A stretch of 54,071 nt of DNA from Synergistaceae bacterium. Lineage in GTDB: Bacteria > Synergistota > Synergistia > Synergistales > Acetomicrobiaceae. The stretch covers positions 1-54,071 of the forward strand of contig JAAYTM010000028.1 in NCBI GenBank assembly GCA_012518015.1, in the 5' to 3' direction. Every line of letters starts with the position of its first letter. Within the stretch, counting starts at the first letter, position 1. Of the stretch, positions 29,164-40,207 are shown piece by piece. Both the position numbers and the translations under genes were made by a program. Below the pieces are notes generated by a model. It saw only the letters and a program-made list of their open reading frames with translations, was not told the origin of the DNA and did not search any database.

Positions 29164-29838
29164 ATGGAAAAGGCAAGCGTTATAAAACCACTAGTTGATA
29201 CTAACATAAGTGACAAGGTGTTTGCTGTGCTCAAGACCGCCATCCATCGTGGTGAGTTACAACCGGGTGATCCTCTTATTGAACGCGATCTTGCCGAAAA
29301 ACTCGCGGTATCACGCACGCCAGTGCGTGAAGCAATACAGCGCCTGAAAACGATGGGATTAGCGGTTCAAGTGTCGAGAAAAACAGTGATAGTGGCAAAA
29401 CCTACGCCAGAGGAAGTATTGGATACATTCCATGTTCGTGAGGTCCTTGAAGGGCTTGCGGCTAGTCTTGCAGCGACTAACGCGACACCCGATGATCTTG
29501 CCTACTTTGGCAGCTTGGTTGAGGATATGGAACAGTGCATCAATGTAAATGACGACGATAAGTTAGAAGAACTTCACATGCTTTTTCATGAAAGATTATA
29601 TCGAGCTTCTGGAAATAAAAAATTATGTCAACTGCTCATGGATTTAAGGGATTGTATAAAAGCCTATACTCGTATTGGATATGCATTCCCGGGCAGAAAA
29701 TCGGAGGCTGCCCTAGAACATAGAAAAATATTGGATGCATTGGTTTCCAAAAACCCCAGAAAGGCCGAAGAGTGGGCTAGAAAACACATCAAAAGATCAA
29801 AAGAAGCATATATAAAGGAATTACAAAAAAATTCGTAA
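29164..29838 (+). CDS. GntR-family transcriptional regulator (FCD type)
   Basis: AIHRGELQPGDPLIERDLAEKLAVSRTPVREAIQRLKTMGLAVQVSRKTVIVAKPT. Confidence 0.92.
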   Translation: MEKASVIKPLVDTNISDKVFAVLKTAIHRGELQPGDPLIERDLAEKLAVSRTPVREAIQRLKTMGLAVQVSRKTVIVAKPTPEEVLDTFHVREVLEGLAASLAATNATPDDLAYFGSLVEDMEQCINVNDDDKLEELHMLFHERLYRASGNKKLCQLLMDLRDCIKAYTRIGYAFPGRKSEAALEHRKILDALVSKNPRKAEEWARKHIKRSKEAYIKELQKNS

Positions 29839-30087: not shown

Positions 30088-30179
30088 CTGCCTATGGCAG
30101 TAGATAAATTTCACGCTGACTTTATACTTCAATTATGCACTCATGTTTTGCTTCTTCTTTATCGTATAATACCTTTTTA

Positions 30180-30610
30180 TTTACGGTGTCTTTTTGTTGG
30201 GTCAAGTCCATAATTTCCGTCAAATTACCCCCTGATTAAATCTGGAGGTTAAATTCCCGCCATTACTGGAGCTACTTCACCTATTTCACAATATTGCTTA
30301 TGTTTTTGTCTCTGTTCCTGTTTTTTCCATTCTCGAAGTACTTCTTGTCTCATATCCTTTCAGGTTAATTCCCAATCATTCACTAAATAACCACAAGCTA
30401 CATACAGTTGTCGCTCGTGTTTAATATCCCCTGGCTCAGTAGCTTTCCTATCTTGGTATCTAAGTATTTAGGTATCTAAGTATTTATTTCCCCCGAATTT
30501 ATTGCCATTTAGAGGGATCATCTGCCAGTGTTTATAACCTTTAGTCGTGGTGTAGGAGACTTCTTTTTAAGTAGTTTGGACGGCTCTTGCTATCATTGTA
30601 TTTTTACGTC
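30180..30610 (-). pseudogene. Decayed coding remnant with in-frame stops (family not identified)
   Basis: Minus strand reads MIARAVQTT*KEVSYTTTKGYKHWQMIPLNGNKFGGNKYLDT*ILRYQDRKATEPGDIKHERQLYVACGYLVNDWELT*KDMRQEVLREWKKQEQRQKHKQYCEIGEVAPVMAGI*; protein-like but interrupted. Confidence 0.4.
30455..30486. repeat. 16-bp perfect tandem duplication
   Basis: GGTATCTAAGTATTTA x 2 (30455-30470, 30471-30486). Confidence 0.9.
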
Positions 30611-30652: not shown

Positions 30653-30706
30653 TTGACAAAAGATACTTAGTATGTATACTTGGATCCGGGATCCAAGTAT
30701 ACATAC
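30653..30706 (+). promoter_or_regulatory. Promoter with 37-bp perfect palindrome over the -10 element
   Basis: TTGACA (30653-30658), 16-nt spacer, TATACT (30675-30680); palindrome GTATGTATACTTGGATCC-G-GGATCCAAGTATACATAC at 30670-30706. Confidence 0.8.
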
Positions 30707-30773: not shown

Positions 30774-31481
30774 ATGGAGAGCTTTAAATTCATTGAACCA
30801 ATACAATACAATGACTTCCGTCCTGTCAGAGAACTGGTTCTTGAACGTTTACGAGAAGCCATATTAAATAGGACCTTGAAACCGGGAGATCGCATAGTTG
30901 AGGCCGAACTAGCTCAAGTATTTAACGTGAGCCGCACCCCAGTAAGAGAAGCATTACGTGTGTTAGAAGCTGAGGGGCTTTTAAGGAGAATTCCAAGGAA
31001 AGGTCTCTTCGTCAGGGGCATCACGAGAGAGGATGTGGTTGAGATTTACTCCATACGAATTGCCCTTGAATCGCTGGCTGTATCTATAGCCGTTGAGCGC
31101 ATAACTCCTGTTGAAATTAGCAGGTTAGCTAAGCTGGTCGATCAGATGAAAAAATATACGGAGTCCAAGGAGTCCGACAAACTGTTTTCGGTGTGTCAGG
31201 AATTTAACGATATTTTGGTGAGGGCTTCTAGAATGCCAAGGCTCATTAAGCTTGTGAAGGTTTACATGGAATATTTAGAGCAATTCCGTGCTATTTCGAT
31301 GGCAAAACACGAAAGGCAAGTGGCAGCCTTGAGAGAACATGAAGAGATTTTGCGAGCTGTGGTCAATAGGAATCCACAAGAAGCTGAAATGGCTGTTAAA
31401 AGACACCTGCGGGGTGCTTTAGAAGCGTTCTTGAAAGAAGAGAGAATTTGCGATACTCAGAAATTAACGGATAGGCGGTGA
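30774..31481 (+). CDS. GntR-family transcriptional regulator (FCD type)
   Basis: AILNRTLKPGDRIVEAELAQVFNVSRTPVREALRVLEAEGLLRRIPRKGLFVRGIT. Confidence 0.93.
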   Translation: MESFKFIEPIQYNDFRPVRELVLERLREAILNRTLKPGDRIVEAELAQVFNVSRTPVREALRVLEAEGLLRRIPRKGLFVRGITREDVVEIYSIRIALESLAVSIAVERITPVEISRLAKLVDQMKKYTESKESDKLFSVCQEFNDILVRASRMPRLIKLVKVYMEYLEQFRAISMAKHERQVAALREHEEILRAVVNRNPQEAEMAVKRHLRGALEAFLKEERICDTQKLTDRR

Positions 31482-31491
31482 AGTGGTTATT

Positions 31492-32847
31492 ATGAGAGAG
31501 CTTCACATTCTCGCCCCAAATGGAATGTTGGGTTACGGCTTCCCTGTCAAGTGGTTTAAACGGGCTTTATCCATGAACCCTCATGCGATAGCCGTAGACT
31601 CCGGATCTACCGACAGTGGACCTCACAAGTTGGCGATGGGCGTCATGACCTGTTCTAAAGAGGCTTACACCAAAGACATATCGCTCCTCTTAGATGCCGT
31701 AAGCGAAAAGAAAATACCTCTTTTTATCAGCTCTGCAGGCGGAGCTGGTACCAACGCTCAGGTTGATATTTTTTTGGATATCATTGAGAAAATATCAAGA
31801 CAGAGGAATTATCACTTCAAGATTGCTGCGATATATAGCGAGATCGATAAAAACCTAATCAAAGAAAAGTTAAAAAATGGTCAAATTGCCCCATGCGGTC
31901 CTGTTCCCCCTCTTTCAGATGAAGAAATAGATTTAGCCACCACTGTAGTCGCTCAAATGGGAGTCGAGCCATTTCTGAAAGTATTAAAGGAAAATGATGT
32001 GGATATTATTGTTTCCGGAAGAACCTACGATCCGGTCGCTATAGCGGCAATGCCGATAAAGGAAGGATTCGATCCGGGACTTGCTTGGCATATGGGAAAA
32101 ATTATGGAGTGCGGGGCCCTTTGCGCGGAACCGGCAGGCAAAGTGATGCTTGGAGTAATACATGAAGATCATTTCATATTAGAACCGGGTAGCCTAGAAG
32201 AACGCTGCACTATATCGTCTGTTGCAGCACATACATTGTATGAAAAATCCCATCCCTATTTCTTACCTGGTCCTGGCGGTGTGCTGGATTTATCAGATGC
32301 GCGATTTGAGCAACTTGATGATCGCCGAGTTAAGGTCTCTGGTAGCAAGTTTGTGGCATCCGATAAGTACGCCGTTAAACTTGAAGGCGCCAAAAAAGTT
32401 GGTTTCCGCTCCATCTTTATCGGAGGAGTAAGGGATCCCATCTTAATAGGTCATATTGATGAAGTACTGACAAGAGTTGCTAAAGACGTGAAAGATTATT
32501 TCAAAGATATACCCCTCGATCAATATCAAATGATATATCACGTATATGGTAAAAATGGAGTTATGGCAGAACTTGAGCCAGTAAAGAATGCTACCCCCCT
32601 AGAATTGTGTATTATTCTCGAGGTTGCTGCACCGACTCAGGAATTGGCTACGGCCATATGTTCAAGGGCTAGGACGGAACTTTTGCATTGTCCCTACGAA
32701 GGGCGAATAGGTACTGCAGGAAATATAGCTTTTCCATTTACACCTCTTGAAATTTCTTTGGGAGAAGTCTGTGCTTTTAATGTGTATCACCTGATGGAAA
32801 TCGATGATCCTGTAAATCTTTTCCCGATTAGATATTTGGAGGTATAG
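31492..32847 (+). CDS. AtuA-like (DUF1446) family protein
   Basis: IAVDSGSTDSGPHKLAMG; ISSAGGAGTNAQVD; VDIIVSGRTYDPVAIAAMPIKEGFDPGLAWHMGKIMECGALCAEP. Confidence 0.8.
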   Translation: MRELHILAPNGMLGYGFPVKWFKRALSMNPHAIAVDSGSTDSGPHKLAMGVMTCSKEAYTKDISLLLDAVSEKKIPLFISSAGGAGTNAQVDIFLDIIEKISRQRNYHFKIAAIYSEIDKNLIKEKLKNGQIAPCGPVPPLSDEEIDLATTVVAQMGVEPFLKVLKENDVDIIVSGRTYDPVAIAAMPIKEGFDPGLAWHMGKIMECGALCAEPAGKVMLGVIHEDHFILEPGSLEERCTISSVAAHTLYEKSHPYFLPGPGGVLDLSDARFEQLDDRRVKVSGSKFVASDKYAVKLEGAKKVGFRSIFIGGVRDPILIGHIDEVLTRVAKDVKDYFKDIPLDQYQMIYHVYGKNGVMAELEPVKNATPLELCIILEVAAPTQELATAICSRARTELLHCPYEGRIGTAGNIAFPFTPLEISLGEVCAFNVYHLMEIDDPVNLFPIRYLEV

Positions 32848-32849
32848 AA

Positions 32850-33182
32850 ATGAATATAAAATCTGTCAAACTCAGAGACATAGCGAAGGTAATTAGAAGC
32901 AAAAATGCAGGCCCATTTGAGCTTACCTTTGATGTCATATTTAAAACCAAGGAAGACTACGAAAAGGTAAAAGCCTCCGGTGTTCTCAACAAAAGGCTTA
33001 TAGCCAGTTTATATAACCTGGATCCGCAAAATATTTTAACATTCGTCTTTTATGATGCCGCTAATGCTGTGAAGATTACCATACCTCGCATGCGACCCCA
33101 GGGATCTATAGGAGAGGTCGATATGCATGGCGCTCAACAGTATGTACCTCTTTTCGATATAGATATTCCGATAGACTTGTAA
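32850..33182 (+). CDS. DUF4387-family small protein, partner of AtuA-like protein
   Basis: VKLRDIAKVIRSKNAGPFELTFDVIFKTKEDYEKVKASGVLNKRLIASLYNL; adjacent to AtuA-like gene. Confidence 0.75.
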   Translation: MNIKSVKLRDIAKVIRSKNAGPFELTFDVIFKTKEDYEKVKASGVLNKRLIASLYNLDPQNILTFVFYDAANAVKITIPRMRPQGSIGEVDMHGAQQYVPLFDIDIPIDL

Positions 33183-33234: not shown

Positions 33235-34233
33235 ATGGCAATGAGAGGGAAAGCGGTATGGATCGTGGGGATCATGGCGTTCGTTCTTTTCATAAGCGGG
33301 ATGGCAATTGCGCAGCAGGACTATCCCAGCAAACCCTTCGAATTTATAGCACCGGCCGGTCCGGGCGGCGGATGGGATACAACTATCAGAATGGTCGCAA
33401 GGGTTCTGCAGGAGGAAAAGCTAGTGCCCGTACCAATGCCGGTCATCAATAAGCCAGGAGGGGGCGGTGGGGTGGCTCTTGCATATTTGCAACAGCGGAA
33501 GGGAGATCCCTATACTGTTGCAGTTTATTCTCCACCACTTTTGCTCATTAACTTAACTGGTCAAACTAAACTTTCCTTTAAGGATACTACTCCTATAGCC
33601 AGGCTTATCAGCGATTATGGCGCTTTTGCCGTACCGAAAAATTCTCCCTATCAATCCATTAGCGAAGTAATGGAAGCGCTGAAAAAGGATCCCAAAAGCG
33701 TTAAGGTTGGTGGCACTTCCTCACCAGGATCAATGGACCACGTTCAATTTCTTATTGCAGCAAAAGCAGCTGGAATAATCGACTTGGATAAAATTGTGTA
33801 TATCGCCTTTCAAGAGGGGCAACAATTGGCAGCCTTATTGGGAGGACACATTGATCTTTTGAGCACAGGCTTAGCAGAGACGCAAGGACCCATGATGTCA
33901 GGTGACATTAAGGTGCTTGCGATTTCAAGGCCAGAGCCATATGATGAGGGGCCTTTCGCGAATGTTCCTACCTTGCGTCAAGGCGGCGTTGATGCAGAAT
34001 TTATTAACTGGCGTGGTTTATTTGGTCCTCCTGAAATGCCGAATTATGCTGTAAAGTATCTCGAAGAAAAACTTGCTCAGCTGGAGAAAACTCAATTGTG
34101 GGATGAGATATGCAATACCAATGGTTGGGATAAGAGTTTTTTACCTGCAGAAGAGTTCAAGGCGTTCTTAGCTAAAACGAATGAAGAATACAAGGAAGTT
34201 TTGAAGGCAATTGGTTTCTATAAGGGAGAATAA
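33235..34233 (+). CDS. TTT substrate-binding protein (TctC family), copy 1
   Basis: Signal peptide then QQDYPSKPFEFIAPAGPGGGWDTTIRMVARVLQEEKLVPVPMPVINKPGGGGGVALAYL. Confidence 0.93.
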   Translation: MAMRGKAVWIVGIMAFVLFISGMAIAQQDYPSKPFEFIAPAGPGGGWDTTIRMVARVLQEEKLVPVPMPVINKPGGGGGVALAYLQQRKGDPYTVAVYSPPLLLINLTGQTKLSFKDTTPIARLISDYGAFAVPKNSPYQSISEVMEALKKDPKSVKVGGTSSPGSMDHVQFLIAAKAAGIIDLDKIVYIAFQEGQQLAALLGGHIDLLSTGLAETQGPMMSGDIKVLAISRPEPYDEGPFANVPTLRQGGVDAEFINWRGLFGPPEMPNYAVKYLEEKLAQLEKTQLWDEICNTNGWDKSFLPAEEFKAFLAKTNEEYKEVLKAIGFYKGE

Positions 34234-34245
34234 CTTTTAGGCAAC

Positions 34246-34281
34246 CAAAGAGGACAGCTTTGAACAAAGCTGTCCTCTTTG
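34246..34281 (+). promoter_or_regulatory. Strong intercistronic hairpin between tctC and tctB
   Basis: CAAAGAGGACAGCTTTG-AA-CAAAGCTGTCCTCTTTG perfect inverted repeat; no long U-tract. Confidence 0.8.
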
Positions 34282-34300: not shown

Positions 34301-34735
34301 ATGAACTCTGATGTAATTATTGGAATTGCAGGTCTTACTTTAGGAATATCTTATTTTATTCAGAGCTTAAATCTTCCAAAGGCGTTTATAGGTAATCCGT
34401 GGGCACCCATTTACTTCCCGTTGTCTTTGGGAGTGCTTATGATTCTGTGTAGTGCAATCCTTTTAGTTGAAAGTTTACGGCGCAGGAAGAAAAGTGAAAA
34501 GTTCAGTGCTCGAGTTCCATGGTTTCTGATTATAGGGACAATGTCAATAGGATCTGTATACGCCGTTTTATTCAACAGAATAGGTTTCATCCCGTCTACA
34601 ATTATATTTATCGGAGCGATGTTATTTTTAGTTAATGGTACAAGGGGCTGGTTGCTGAACATCATACTTACGGTTTGCTTAACATTGAGCGTTTGGTATT
34701 GCTTTGAAAAAGTTTTGTACATCTCTATGCCATAA
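34301..34735 (+). CDS. TTT small membrane subunit (TctB family), copy 1
   Basis: Four-helix TctB-like protein of 144 aa between TctC and TctA. Confidence 0.85.
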   Translation: MNSDVIIGIAGLTLGISYFIQSLNLPKAFIGNPWAPIYFPLSLGVLMILCSAILLVESLRRRKKSEKFSARVPWFLIIGTMSIGSVYAVLFNRIGFIPSTIIFIGAMLFLVNGTRGWLLNIILTVCLTLSVWYCFEKVLYISMP

Positions 34736-34752: not shown

Positions 34753-36264
34753 TTGGAGGCAATTAATAATTTATTATATGGATTAACGATCGTTGCCAAG
34801 CCAGTTAATATTATTTTTATGTCAGTAGGATGTATTCTTGGAACAGTGCTTGGAATGTTACCTGGAGTCGGTCCAGCAACCGGCGTAGCTTTATTGCTCC
34901 CTTTGACATTTACGATGAAGCCGGAAACCGCGTTAATTACCATGGCAGCCGTTTATTACGGGGCTATGTTTGGAGGGTCGCGCAGTTCGATATTATTAAA
35001 CGTTCCTGGCGATGGTGCCGCTATAGCCTCGTGTTTTGATGGTTATCCTATGACGTTAAAGGGAAAGGCGGAATCTGCTTTGGCCATATCTGCAGTTGCT
35101 TCTTTCATTGGAGGCTTAATCGCGGCAGTTATTTTCCTGTTTTTGGCAATGCCCGTTGCTAGATTTGCCCTGCGTTTTGGACCGCCCGAGTACTTTGTGT
35201 TGATGGTCTTTGCCTTGTCTGCTACGGCATCTTTAACTGAAGAAAGCCCCGTCAAAGGTTTTATGTCGTTGTTGTTTGGTCTCATGGTGACAACTGTAGG
35301 CATTGACCTTCAATCCGGAGTTTTGCGTTTTACTTTTGGAATTCCAGAACTTCAAACGGGAATTGATTTTGTAGTGGTAATTGTAGGAATATATGGTATT
35401 GGAGAGGTATTTAAAAACTACGAAACGATCAAAGAGACAGGCATATATGCTTTAAAAACAACTTTTGGTCGTATATGGTTCACATTGGAAGAGTGGCGCA
35501 GGTGTATATGGCCTATCTTAAGGGAGTCTATAGTTGGGTTCATTATAGGTGTATTACCTGGAGCTGGAGGCACTATTGCAGCGATGATGGCTTACAGCAA
35601 CGAAAAGCGATTGTCAAAAGAACCTGAAAGTTTTGGCACAGGCGTGCCAGAAGGGTTGGCAGCTCCTGAAGCTGCCAACAATGCAGCTTCTATCGGGGCA
35701 ATGATACCCATGTTGACATTGGGAGTTCCCGGCTCAGGAACTACTGCAGTTATGCTAGGAGCCCTCATGATTTACGGCTTACAGCCCGGGCCTCTCCTTT
35801 TTGAGCAGCGTCCGGAAATTGCATGGGGAGTAATAGCAAGTTTATTTGTAGGGAATCTGATTTGCATAATAATTAATCTTCCACTGGCAGGGCTATTGGT
35901 CAGGTTATTATCAGTGCCTGGACGTCTACTTTATCCCCTTATAGTAGTAATTGCTTTTTTTGGGGTATACACTATAAACTTTTCGGTTGTAGATTTTTAT
36001 ATGCTCCTTATTTTTGGATTTGTTGGATACTTCATGAGACGATATAAAGTCCCCATTGCTCCAATGGTGTTGTCGGTTGTTTTAGGATCTTCCATGGAAA
36101 ATTCATTCCGTCAGTCATTAATGCTTTCTGATGGAAGTTTGAAGATTTTCTTTAGATCGGGCATAAGTATAGCCCTTATCATACTAACTTTGCTTTCGGT
36201 AATGTGGCCTATATTTTCAAAAAATATAAAGATGCGACGTGTTTCGACAAAAAGCGCAAATTAA
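34753..36264 (+). CDS. TTT large membrane subunit (TctA family), copy 1
   Basis: LGMLPGVGPATGVALLLPLTFTMKPETALITMAAVYYGAMFGGSRSSILLNVPGDGAAIASCFDGYPMTLKGKAESALAISAVASFIGG. Confidence 0.95.
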   Translation: MEAINNLLYGLTIVAKPVNIIFMSVGCILGTVLGMLPGVGPATGVALLLPLTFTMKPETALITMAAVYYGAMFGGSRSSILLNVPGDGAAIASCFDGYPMTLKGKAESALAISAVASFIGGLIAAVIFLFLAMPVARFALRFGPPEYFVLMVFALSATASLTEESPVKGFMSLLFGLMVTTVGIDLQSGVLRFTFGIPELQTGIDFVVVIVGIYGIGEVFKNYETIKETGIYALKTTFGRIWFTLEEWRRCIWPILRESIVGFIIGVLPGAGGTIAAMMAYSNEKRLSKEPESFGTGVPEGLAAPEAANNAASIGAMIPMLTLGVPGSGTTAVMLGALMIYGLQPGPLLFEQRPEIAWGVIASLFVGNLICIIINLPLAGLLVRLLSVPGRLLYPLIVVIAFFGVYTINFSVVDFYMLLIFGFVGYFMRRYKVPIAPMVLSVVLGSSMENSFRQSLMLSDGSLKIFFRSGISIALIILTLLSVMWPIFSKNIKMRRVSTKSAN

Positions 36265-36300: not shown

Positions 36301-38235
36301 ATGATGGGTTTAACTATAACTGAAAAGATAATAAAACAACATTTAATCAAAGGGGATATGACCAAGGGATCTTCTGTGGCTATTAAGATAGATCAGACAT
36401 TGATTCACGATGCCACAGGAACTATGGCCATGTTGGAGCTTGAAGCCACAGGAGTTAAACGTGTGAAAACGGAATTGTCCGTAGCTTATGTTGATCACAA
36501 CATGATTCAAGAAGATTTTAAAAACCCAGATGACCACAGGTTTTTGCAGGATATGGCTGCTAAATACGGGCTAATGTTTTCAAGGCCTGGTAATGGTATT
36601 TGTCATCATGTTCATCTTGAGCGTTTTGCAGTTCCGGGAAGGACTCTCCTTGGCAGTGACTCTCATACCCCTACAGCAGGCGGTATCGGCATGCTTGCTA
36701 TTGGTGCCGGTGGTTTGGATGTAGCTATGGCAATGGCGGGCGAGCCTTTTTCTGTTATAATGCCAAAAATTATAAGAGTTTATCTAACGGGAGAGCTTTC
36801 TCCTTTTGTATCTGCAAAGGACGTAATATTAGAGGTCTTGCGGCGTATTTCGGTTAAAGGCGGAGTGGGAAAAGCCCTCGAATATTGTGGTCCCGGTGTT
36901 AAATCCTTAAGTGTAAGTGAAAGAGCCACGATAACTAACATGGGAGCTGAAACAGGTGCTACTACATCTATATTCCAAAGTGACGAAGTGACACGAGAGT
37001 GGCTAAGAGCCCAAGGAAGAGAGCGAGACTGGGTGCCTTTGTATCCAGATGAGGATGCTATCTATGACGAAGAAATTAATTTAGACTTGTCTTCATTGGA
37101 GCCAATGGTCGCAAAACCCTTTTTGCCCGATAACGTAGTGCCAGTTAAGGAAGTTGCGGGTACTCGGGTAGATCAAGTAATGTTCGGTTCATGTACGAAC
37201 TCCTCGCTACGGGATATTTTAACCATAGCGCATATGCTCAAGGGCAAAAGAATTCATCCCAATGTCGATGCTGGGCTTTCGCCTGGGAGTAGGCAAATTC
37301 TGTTGCAGGCGAATGTGGAAGGAGCCATCGAGGACTTAATTGCAGCGGGTGTGAGGATTTTAGAGGCAAGTTGTGGAGCATGTGTAGGTATGGGATTTGC
37401 ACCTCCTACAGATGGCGTTTCCGTGAGAACGATAAATCGTAACTTTTACGGAAGGTGCGGGCATACCAGCGGAAAGGTATATCTTGCCAGCCCTGAAGTG
37501 GCCGCAGCAGCTTGTATCACAGGGGTGATTACTGACCCTAGGGAGATTGATGTAGATCCATATCATTTTGAGACGCCTTCAAATCTCGTAATCGACGAAG
37601 GAATGTTCATAGCTCCCTCGCCTGAGCCGGAGAGAATTACTGTTCGAAGAGGACCTAATATCAAACCATTGCCTGAAATGAGTCCGTTGCCCGACAAACT
37701 TGAAGGGAAGGTCTTGATAAAGGTAGGAGATGACATTACGACGGATCATATAATGCCTGCAGGAGCTAAATTCCTGCCGTTACGATCCAACATTCCCGCT
37801 ATTTCAGAGCATGTCTTTGAAGTTGTGGATCCAGATTTTGCAAAAAGGGCCAAGGAGCTTAAAGGCGGATTTATCGTAGCGGGGGTGAATTACGGTCAAG
37901 GATCAAGCAGGGAGCATGCCGCTTTAGCGCCAAGGTATTTAGGCGTTAAGGCCGTTATAGCTAAGAGCTTTGCCCGCATCCATCTTGCGAATCTGGTTAA
38001 CTTCGGTATATTGCCCTTAATTTTTGTCAATATAGAGGACTACGAGAAAATAGATCGAGATGATAAACTTTTCTTCAATGTCGGTCAACTGAATGTCGGA
38101 TCTCAAGCGGTTTTGCGGAATTTAACGAAAAATATAGAAATTCCAGTTATATGTCCATTGAGCAGCGATGATTTAGATATCGTTAAGGCAGGCGGCAAGC
38201 TCAATTGGATTAGATTAAATGCTTCTCTTGATTAG
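36301..38235 (+). CDS. Aconitate hydratase
   Basis: GSDSHTPTAGGIGMLAIGAGGLDVAMAMAG; VMFGSCTNSSLRDI; ASCGACVGMG; C-terminal swivel VAGVNYGQGSSREHAALAPRYLG. Confidence 0.92.
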   Translation: MMGLTITEKIIKQHLIKGDMTKGSSVAIKIDQTLIHDATGTMAMLELEATGVKRVKTELSVAYVDHNMIQEDFKNPDDHRFLQDMAAKYGLMFSRPGNGICHHVHLERFAVPGRTLLGSDSHTPTAGGIGMLAIGAGGLDVAMAMAGEPFSVIMPKIIRVYLTGELSPFVSAKDVILEVLRRISVKGGVGKALEYCGPGVKSLSVSERATITNMGAETGATTSIFQSDEVTREWLRAQGRERDWVPLYPDEDAIYDEEINLDLSSLEPMVAKPFLPDNVVPVKEVAGTRVDQVMFGSCTNSSLRDILTIAHMLKGKRIHPNVDAGLSPGSRQILLQANVEGAIEDLIAAGVRILEASCGACVGMGFAPPTDGVSVRTINRNFYGRCGHTSGKVYLASPEVAAAACITGVITDPREIDVDPYHFETPSNLVIDEGMFIAPSPEPERITVRRGPNIKPLPEMSPLPDKLEGKVLIKVGDDITTDHIMPAGAKFLPLRSNIPAISEHVFEVVDPDFAKRAKELKGGFIVAGVNYGQGSSREHAALAPRYLGVKAVIAKSFARIHLANLVNFGILPLIFVNIEDYEKIDRDDKLFFNVGQLNVGSQAVLRNLTKNIEIPVICPLSSDDLDIVKAGGKLNWIRLNASLD

Positions 38236-38247
38236 GAGGTAGCTTAA

Positions 38248-39510
38248 ATGACAGATTTTCCTGGGCTCAAGCTGACAAACATAGATATGCCTTCTTCTGG
38301 TTCCCCCATTACCATGAGAGATGAAGGCAAACTAATTGTACCGAACGATCCTGTTGTTCCCTTTATTGAAGGGGATGGAATCGGACCCGATATAACTCGG
38401 GCCATGAAAATGGTTACGGAAAATGCTGTTTACAAGGCATACGGAAGAAATAGAAAGATTTACTTTTGGGAGATATATGCAGGCGAGAAATGCAATAAAA
38501 TATTTGGCAACTGGCTTATTGACGATACCCTTGAAGCTATTAAGTATTTTAAAGTTGCGATAAAAGGACCTTTGACAACACCTGTAGGCGGTGGGATTCG
38601 AAGCATCAACGTCAGGCTCAGGCAAGCACTTGAGCTGTACGCCTGCATCAGGCCGGTTCGTTATTTCGACGGAGTACCATCTCCCTTAAGGGATCCCTGG
38701 AAAGTTAACATGGTCGTATTTAGGGAGAACATGGAAGACGTCTATGCTGGGATAGAATGGCCGAAGGGCAGCGTCGAATGTATGAAGATCAGAAATTTTT
38801 TGACGGAAGAAATGGGCGTTTCTTTGCGGGAAGATATCGGGCTTGGCATTAAGCCCATTTCGGCTTTCGGGTCTAAGCGAATAATGCGCAAAGCGATTAA
38901 ATATGCAATCGAACAAAATAGATCCAGCATAACAATAGTGCATAAGGGAAACATCATGAAATACACCGAAGGATTATTTAGGGCATGTTGTTACAAAGTG
39001 GCAGAAGAAGAATTTTCAGGTCAAGTCATTACCGAGGGCGAGGCTAGAGGAAAAACAGCGGAGAGCTTGCCGGATAACAAGATATTAGTAAAGGATAGAA
39101 TTGCCGATGCCATGTTCCAGCAGATTTTGCTCAGGCCGGAAGATTACGATGTCATAGTCACTCCCAACTTAAATGGAGATTACCTTTCCGATGCGATAGC
39201 TGCTACGGCAGGAGGATTAGGCATGGCTCCTGGTGCTAACGTAGGAGATGAAGCGGCTGTGTTTGAGGCTACTCACGGCACAGTGCCAAAGTATGCAGAT
39301 TTGGATAAAGTCAATCCTACTTCTTTGATCCTCTCGTCCGCCATGATGTTAGATCATATTGGTTGGAAAGAAGCAGCTGAACTTATAGTTTCGGCTGTAG
39401 AAAGGACCATACAGTCTCGTGTTGTGACCTATGATTTGGCAAGACAAATGGAGAAAGCAACGGAAGTATCGTGTTCTAAATATGCGGAAACACTATGTCA
39501 AAATATGTAG
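38248..39510 (+). CDS. icd: Isocitrate dehydrogenase (NADP-type family)
   Basis: [94 protein letters not shown]. Confidence 0.94.
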
Positions 39511-40158: not shown

Positions 40159-40179
40159 ATAAAAGTGACTGGGCTACCA

Positions 40180-40189
40180 TGGTATACCA
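40180..40189. promoter_or_regulatory. GntR-type operator TGGTATACCA
   Basis: Perfect 10-bp palindrome of the form known for FadR/UxuR-type GntR operators, 18 bp upstream of the GntR start. Confidence 0.6.
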
Positions 40190-40207
40190 GATACGAGGTG
40201 TAGCTGG

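Follow-up and report, generated by a model that had tools for sequence, protein, structure and literature searches.

A tricarboxylate transporter operon preceded by a perfect palindrome

The window analysed here (i.e., the whole stretch of 54,071 nucleotides) contains an operon for a tripartite tricarboxylate transporter (TTT) that is headed by a regulator of the GntR family (Table 1). The regulator matches both PF00392 (68.1 bits) and PF07729 (91.6 bits) above the respective cut-offs, which places it in the FadR/FCD subfamily, and its HTH match begins at residue 22, leaving about 21 residues ahead of the HTH. A second FCD-type GntR is encoded at 29164-29838, 1 kb upstream, and the minus strand at 30122-30566, also upstream of the operon, contains short open stretches that look protein-like, change frame from one to the next and resemble a decayed gene. 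Within the operon, tctC and tctB are separated by a perfect stem-loop (34246-34281) with 17-bp arms and a 2-nt loop, and the equivalent tctC/tctB site in L100 and L009 has a stem-loop of partly altered sequence: the element is possibly one of mRNA processing or stability that allows an excess of the binding protein.

Table 1. Positions of the regulatory features and operon genes in the window.
Feature	Coordinates	Strand	Basis
-35 hexamer TTGACA	30653..30658	+	Sequence; TTGACA similarly placed before the array in orthologues L009/L013-L017
Palindrome, perfect, 18-bp arms, 1-nt centre	30670..30706	.	Sequence and inverted-repeat search
Box 1 GTATAC (GNATNC)	30674..30679	.	Sequence and box-array survey
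-10 hexamer TATACT, overlaps box 1	30675..30680	+	TATCCT at the equivalent place in same-genus and L016/L017 relatives
Box 2 GGATCC	30682..30687	.	Sequence and box-array survey
Box 3 GGATCC	30689..30694	.	Sequence and box-array survey
Box 4 GTATAC	30697..30702	.	Sequence and box-array survey
GntR regulator, FadR/FCD subfamily, predicted array binder (likely)	30774..31481	+	PF00392 and PF07729; clade in tree
AtuA-family protein; the controlled operon probably has its first structural gene here	31483..32847	+	PF07287
DUF4387 protein	32850..33182	+	PF14330
TctC substrate-binding protein, TTT transporter	33235..34233	+	PF03401
TctB membrane protein	34301..34735	+	PF07331
TctA membrane protein	34753..36264	+	PF01970
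Aconitase-family enzyme	36301..38235	+	PF00330, PF00694
Isocitrate/isopropylmalate dehydrogenase family enzyme	38248..39510	+	PF00180

The palindrome reads GTATGTATACTTGGATCC-G-GGATCCAAGTATACATAC, with all 18 arm pairs matching around the single central nucleotide, and it ends 67 nt before the ATG of the regulator gene at 30774; position, arm length and distance are as described in the first-pass annotation, which had also placed a -35 and a -10 hexamer where we find them, the latter inside the left arm. No other inverted repeat of the window with perfect arms lying within 80 nt is as long, and the number of such perfect dyads (18-bp arms, loop of 0-10 nt) expected by chance is 1e-5 for the window and 4e-4 for the 1.75-Mb genome. 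The two hexamers are separated by a 16-nt spacer, agree with the consensus at 11 of 12 positions and form the only sigma-70-type promoter found between 30500 and 30800, although this call is weak taken alone because shuffled sequences yield 1.2 such promoters on average. Transcription is presumed to start near 30687.

Because the assembly consists of 190 contigs, and fold-back errors can create perfect palindromes, we considered whether the repeat might be an assembly artefact or the end of a mobile element. However, its flanks differ from each other and run on into the expected promoter and gene, and the genome contains neither a second copy of the palindrome nor a mobile-element end; a whole-genome search with the 14-nt half-site returned no exact second copy apart from its mirror. 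The remaining half-site matches had one or two mismatches and were about as numerous as those of a control pattern, and the best of them (on contig C130) proved on inspection not to be an array. Since the same box architecture, described below, recurs in independently assembled genomes, an artefact is very unlikely, and we regard it as the least probable of the explanations weighed here.

The folding energy of its single-stranded DNA (-16 kcal/mol, z -9.2) speaks for a structural role of the palindrome, whether as a cruciform or, in the mRNA, as a hairpin, attenuator or terminator. Yet transcripts from the overlapping promoter would begin near the centre of the palindrome and lack its left arm, making an RNA hairpin unlikely, and the site shows no T-run, no terminator call and no match to an Rfam family. 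The corresponding sites of relatives are, moreover, far less symmetric but still conserved as arrays of boxes, and a structural role thus appears highly improbable.

Four conserved boxes rather than one long dyad

The palindrome resolves into four G-N-A-T-N-C boxes, GTATAC-tt-GGATCC-g-GGATCC-aa-GTATAC, at a spacing of 8-7-8, in which TT, G and AA link four hexamers, each its own perfect complement (GTATAC or GGATCC). The closest named orthologue of the regulator, from Acetomicrobium hydrogeniformans, is 75% identical, and promoters of the genus carry related sites at the equivalent place over the -10 hexamer: GTATCC-TT-GTATTC-A-GGATGC-AA-GTATCC in L009/L013, and GTATCC-TT-GTATCC-A-GGATCC-TG-GAATAC in L014. 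These promoters share a set of four GNATNC hexamers spaced 8-7-8, an array present with zero box mismatches at the regulator's promoter in all four genus genomes that encode this GntR. When six genomes of the genus were scanned with up to two mismatches, the only match beyond the GntR promoter was a poor, two-mismatch one in G001; G001 and G003, in which no close match to the GntR was found, have no 8-7-8 array at zero or one mismatch. A stricter two-box pattern recovered only those same sites in the genus genomes, and within the genome of the window the 8-7-8 form is unique. In the window, box 1 lies over TATACT, which puts the array on the core promoter of the operon that the regulator itself heads; it has the same placement in the genus and in L016/L017.

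Symmetry fared differently from the boxes. About the array centre, 14 of 14 dyad pairs match in the window. The genus promoters reach 10, 9 and 10 of 14, and L016/L017 reach 8-9 of 15, 8 of which follow from the boxes alone. Conservation in orthologous promoters, set beforehand as a test, therefore held for the box array and failed for perfect symmetry, even within the same genus (9-10 of 14 pairs). Over 86 boxes, the consensus positions are occupied by G in 85, A in 85, T in 85 and C in 76 cases, and linkers measure 1 or 2 nt: because the box is rigid while the linker varies by 1 nt, a box is probably the core site of one dimer.

These comparisons also bear on another reading, in which the long dyad itself is what the adjacent GntR recognises, as one dimer or two (with either a subunit or a dimer on each 18-bp arm), and the periodicity of the boxes is incidental. 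Dimeric binding to palindromes is the usual mode among GntR proteins (PMC4494728), and symmetry that is perfect across 37 bp has a negligible probability of arising by chance. Against this, relatives retain the boxes and their spacing but not the symmetry, and in several of them three boxes follow one another in direct order (e.g., GTATCCatGTATCCatGTATCC), leaving the long-dyad reading unlikely. Because relatives conserve the array but not the dyad, the recognised unit is probably the GNATNC box, repeated at 7-8 bp, rather than a single 37-bp dyad. Of the operator proposed in the first-pass annotation, the idea of an autoregulatory site for several dimers is thus well supported by comparative genomics, while the single long dyad as its recognised unit is not.

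Distribution of the array among related regulators

We surveyed the 250 bp upstream of 41 related GntR genes from one phylum, which we take to be Synergistota from the genus of its Acetomicrobium member, and derived expectations from dinucleotide shuffles. Four-box arrays with at most two mismatches occur in 30 of the 41 promoters (0.03 expected), three boxes with at most one mismatch in 31 (0.09 expected) and three exact boxes in 16 (0.00 expected). Two further relatives, L018 and L019, carry three exact boxes farther out, at about 390 nt upstream and hence outside the 250 bp scanned, and approximately 8 of the 41 show no clear array in the examined stretch. No array is present in the upstream stretches of L010 and L011. 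Distances between exact boxes are 7 bp in 34 cases and 8 bp in 19 (53 pairs, against about 0.2 expected). Harmonics appear at 14-16 and 21-24, the distances in between are almost empty, and base shuffles give about 0.1 per distance. In other genera, spacings are 8-8-8 (L016 and L017), 7-7-7 (e.g., L020-L022, L025, L026, L047, L052, L055, L058, L063 and L064) or 8-8 (L046, L053, L056 and L062).

The GNATNC box was defined post hoc, after inspection of the relatives, and the array counts are not independent events because the promoters are related. However, the spacing peak, the shuffles and the paralogue controls argue against a selection artefact: among 40 promoters belonging to other FCD GntR genes, many of them in the same genomes, there was a single array (L073). 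Across 21 regions (about 0.3 Mb) every exact three-box array adjoins the GntR gene with one exception (L090, 7360). In a maximum-likelihood tree, 32 of the 33 array-bearing proteins fall into one 38-row clade (support 99/93), with L073 outside it.

That second FCD GntR gene, 1 kb upstream (29164-29838), raises the question of whether the site belongs to another regulator. The array is absent from the promoters of this gene and of its relatives L067 and L069, so that we rejected the site as its operator; across genomes, the array instead stays with the 30774-type GntR and tracks that clade. Ownership by another regulator therefore has little to recommend it, and we rate it as remote as a structural role. 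The gene order GntR-TctCBA, or a divergent layout with the array in between, recurs among relatives. L016 and L017 keep GntR-TctCBA-aconitase-IDH without the AtuA-family and DUF4387 genes, and most other relatives examined have the GntR with TctCBA only; with TctCBA as the common part, the carboxylate being transported is the most likely ligand.

Three variants were seen beside these arrays. The array of L073 (GTATACtGTATACaGTATAC, at L096 9154-9173), which precedes a GntR outside the clade and has a LarA-like gene a few kb away, may be of independent origin. Upstream of the GntR in L023 and L024, there is no array but a wide-gap inverted repeat, GGATACAAT...ATTGTATCC, a possible alternative layout of the GNATNC box. 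Lastly, a GntR of another clade (L035) is preceded by GTATACgtgGTATACtacGTATACtGTATCC, with boxes at 9, 9 and 7 bp.

Origin of the perfect symmetry

Because relatives keep only partial symmetry, the long perfect dyad is a property of the window's genome rather than of the family, and strict perfection is unnecessary for function, as relatives do without it. Box positions 2 and 5 show no covariation across the 86 boxes, so strict symmetry of the box does not look selected. A plausible, if not quite probable, source of the excess symmetry (i.e., the self-symmetric boxes and the outer GTAT/ATAC) is quasipalindrome correction, in which a template switch copied one arm of an earlier, imperfect array onto the other; mutations of this template-switch type are known from imperfect inverted repeats (PMC7202029, PMC3820800). 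In addition to the lack of covariation, this origin is favoured by the imperfect palindromes that relatives have at the equivalent place, and by the extension of the symmetry 4 bp beyond the boxes on each side. However, the perfect form is known from one genome, making the event undatable, and symmetric boxes could also come from selection for tighter binding. Quasipalindrome correction accounts for the perfection and is compatible with operator function.

Proposed operator and its relation to known systems

Cumulatively, comparison of promoter sequences makes it quite probable that the palindrome is an autoregulatory multi-dimer operator, in which the adjacent FCD-type GntR would bind four GNATNC boxes spaced 8-7-8. 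Each box would be the core site of one dimer, and adjacent dimers, situated on different faces of the helix, would bind side by side and cooperate. Four dimers would cover the -10 hexamer and the presumed start, excluding RNA polymerase from the gntR-TTT operon, and this repression would be released by a carboxylate imported through the TTT system, with gene content pointing to citrate, isocitrate or aconitate. The net circuit would be negative autoregulation combined with induction by substrate. More tentatively, and with slightly less than even confidence, we suggest that as many as four dimers assemble cooperatively into one continuous filament on three to five near-self-complementary GNATNC boxes with a 7- or 8-bp pitch, which would constitute a previously undescribed operator class of a Synergistota FCD GntR clade. 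As the box is self-complementary, order and orientation would be nearly equivalent, and lineages could move freely between spacings of 7 and 8 bp.

The closest precedent is E. coli NanR, another FCD-subfamily GntR, several dimers of which bind closely spaced hexamers in a (GGTATA)3 operator, with cooperativity that comes from a 32-residue N-terminal extension (PMC8012715). Both are FCD-subfamily GntR regulators (NanR a repressor) acting, here by prediction, at the promoter region of an uptake or catabolism operon, and both sites have at least three hexamers at less than a helical turn, with room for one dimer per hexamer. The present array shares the short fixed spacing of three or more hexamers (four boxes at 7-8, conserved in relatives) but not the direct order of GGTATA, its consensus over the 86 boxes being GNATNC. 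Unlike NanR's hexamer, GNATNC is nearly self-complementary, and the array can therefore read as a palindrome. The regulator also belongs to a different clade, heads a TTT operon and has a short N-terminus: the roughly 21 residues before its HTH, versus the 32-residue extension of NanR, are a possible counterpoint to the array model.

Classic operators of the FadR subfamily have GT-N2-AC or GT-N3-AC cores (TKGT-N2/3-ACMA), with one palindromic core per site (PMC4494728). The outer boxes, GTATAC, fit GT-N2-AC, and a symmetric core and autoregulation (proposed here) are likewise shared, but the site has four cores in a row at 8-7-8 rather than one, and the two inner GGATCC boxes lack GT/AC ends, so that it departs from the classic single palindrome. 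Additional boxes 7-12 nt from GntR-family palindromes have been reported and proposed to recruit further subunits (PMC4494728). Those boxes lie at similar distances but are weaker half-sites beside a main palindrome, whereas the present site consists entirely of full boxes, several in number and similar in strength; the phylum of the present array is missing from the taxonomy table of that study. Within the VanR group, ATTGGATCCAAT is a putative VanR site; the literature search turned up no VanR regulation paper confirming it, and the array model does not rest on it. AlkR of Pseudomonas aeruginosa, of the same group, is an FCD dimer whose palindromic site covers -10 regions, and additional weak sites are hinted at (PMC12042122); it resembles the present case in combining an FCD regulator with a palindrome over the -10 hexamer, but has one main 13-bp site.

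Searches of the literature for TTT/GntR operators and Acetomicrobium regulators returned nothing matching. FCD GntR proteins on clustered sites are known, but we found no description of the functional-looking GNATNC box, its pitch, its clade or its phylum-wide distribution in the literature searched. One odd palindrome thus becomes a predicted operator code for a phylum without such a GntR motif in that literature, a regulator clade is tied to TTT carboxylate uptake, and the natural 7-7-7, 8-8-8 and 8-7-8 arrays provide material on the packing of GntR dimers below one helical turn. Elsewhere in the window, a palindrome at 40169-40190 with a GGTATACC core lies immediately ahead of another GntR gene (40208) and is likely an ordinary single-site FCD operator.
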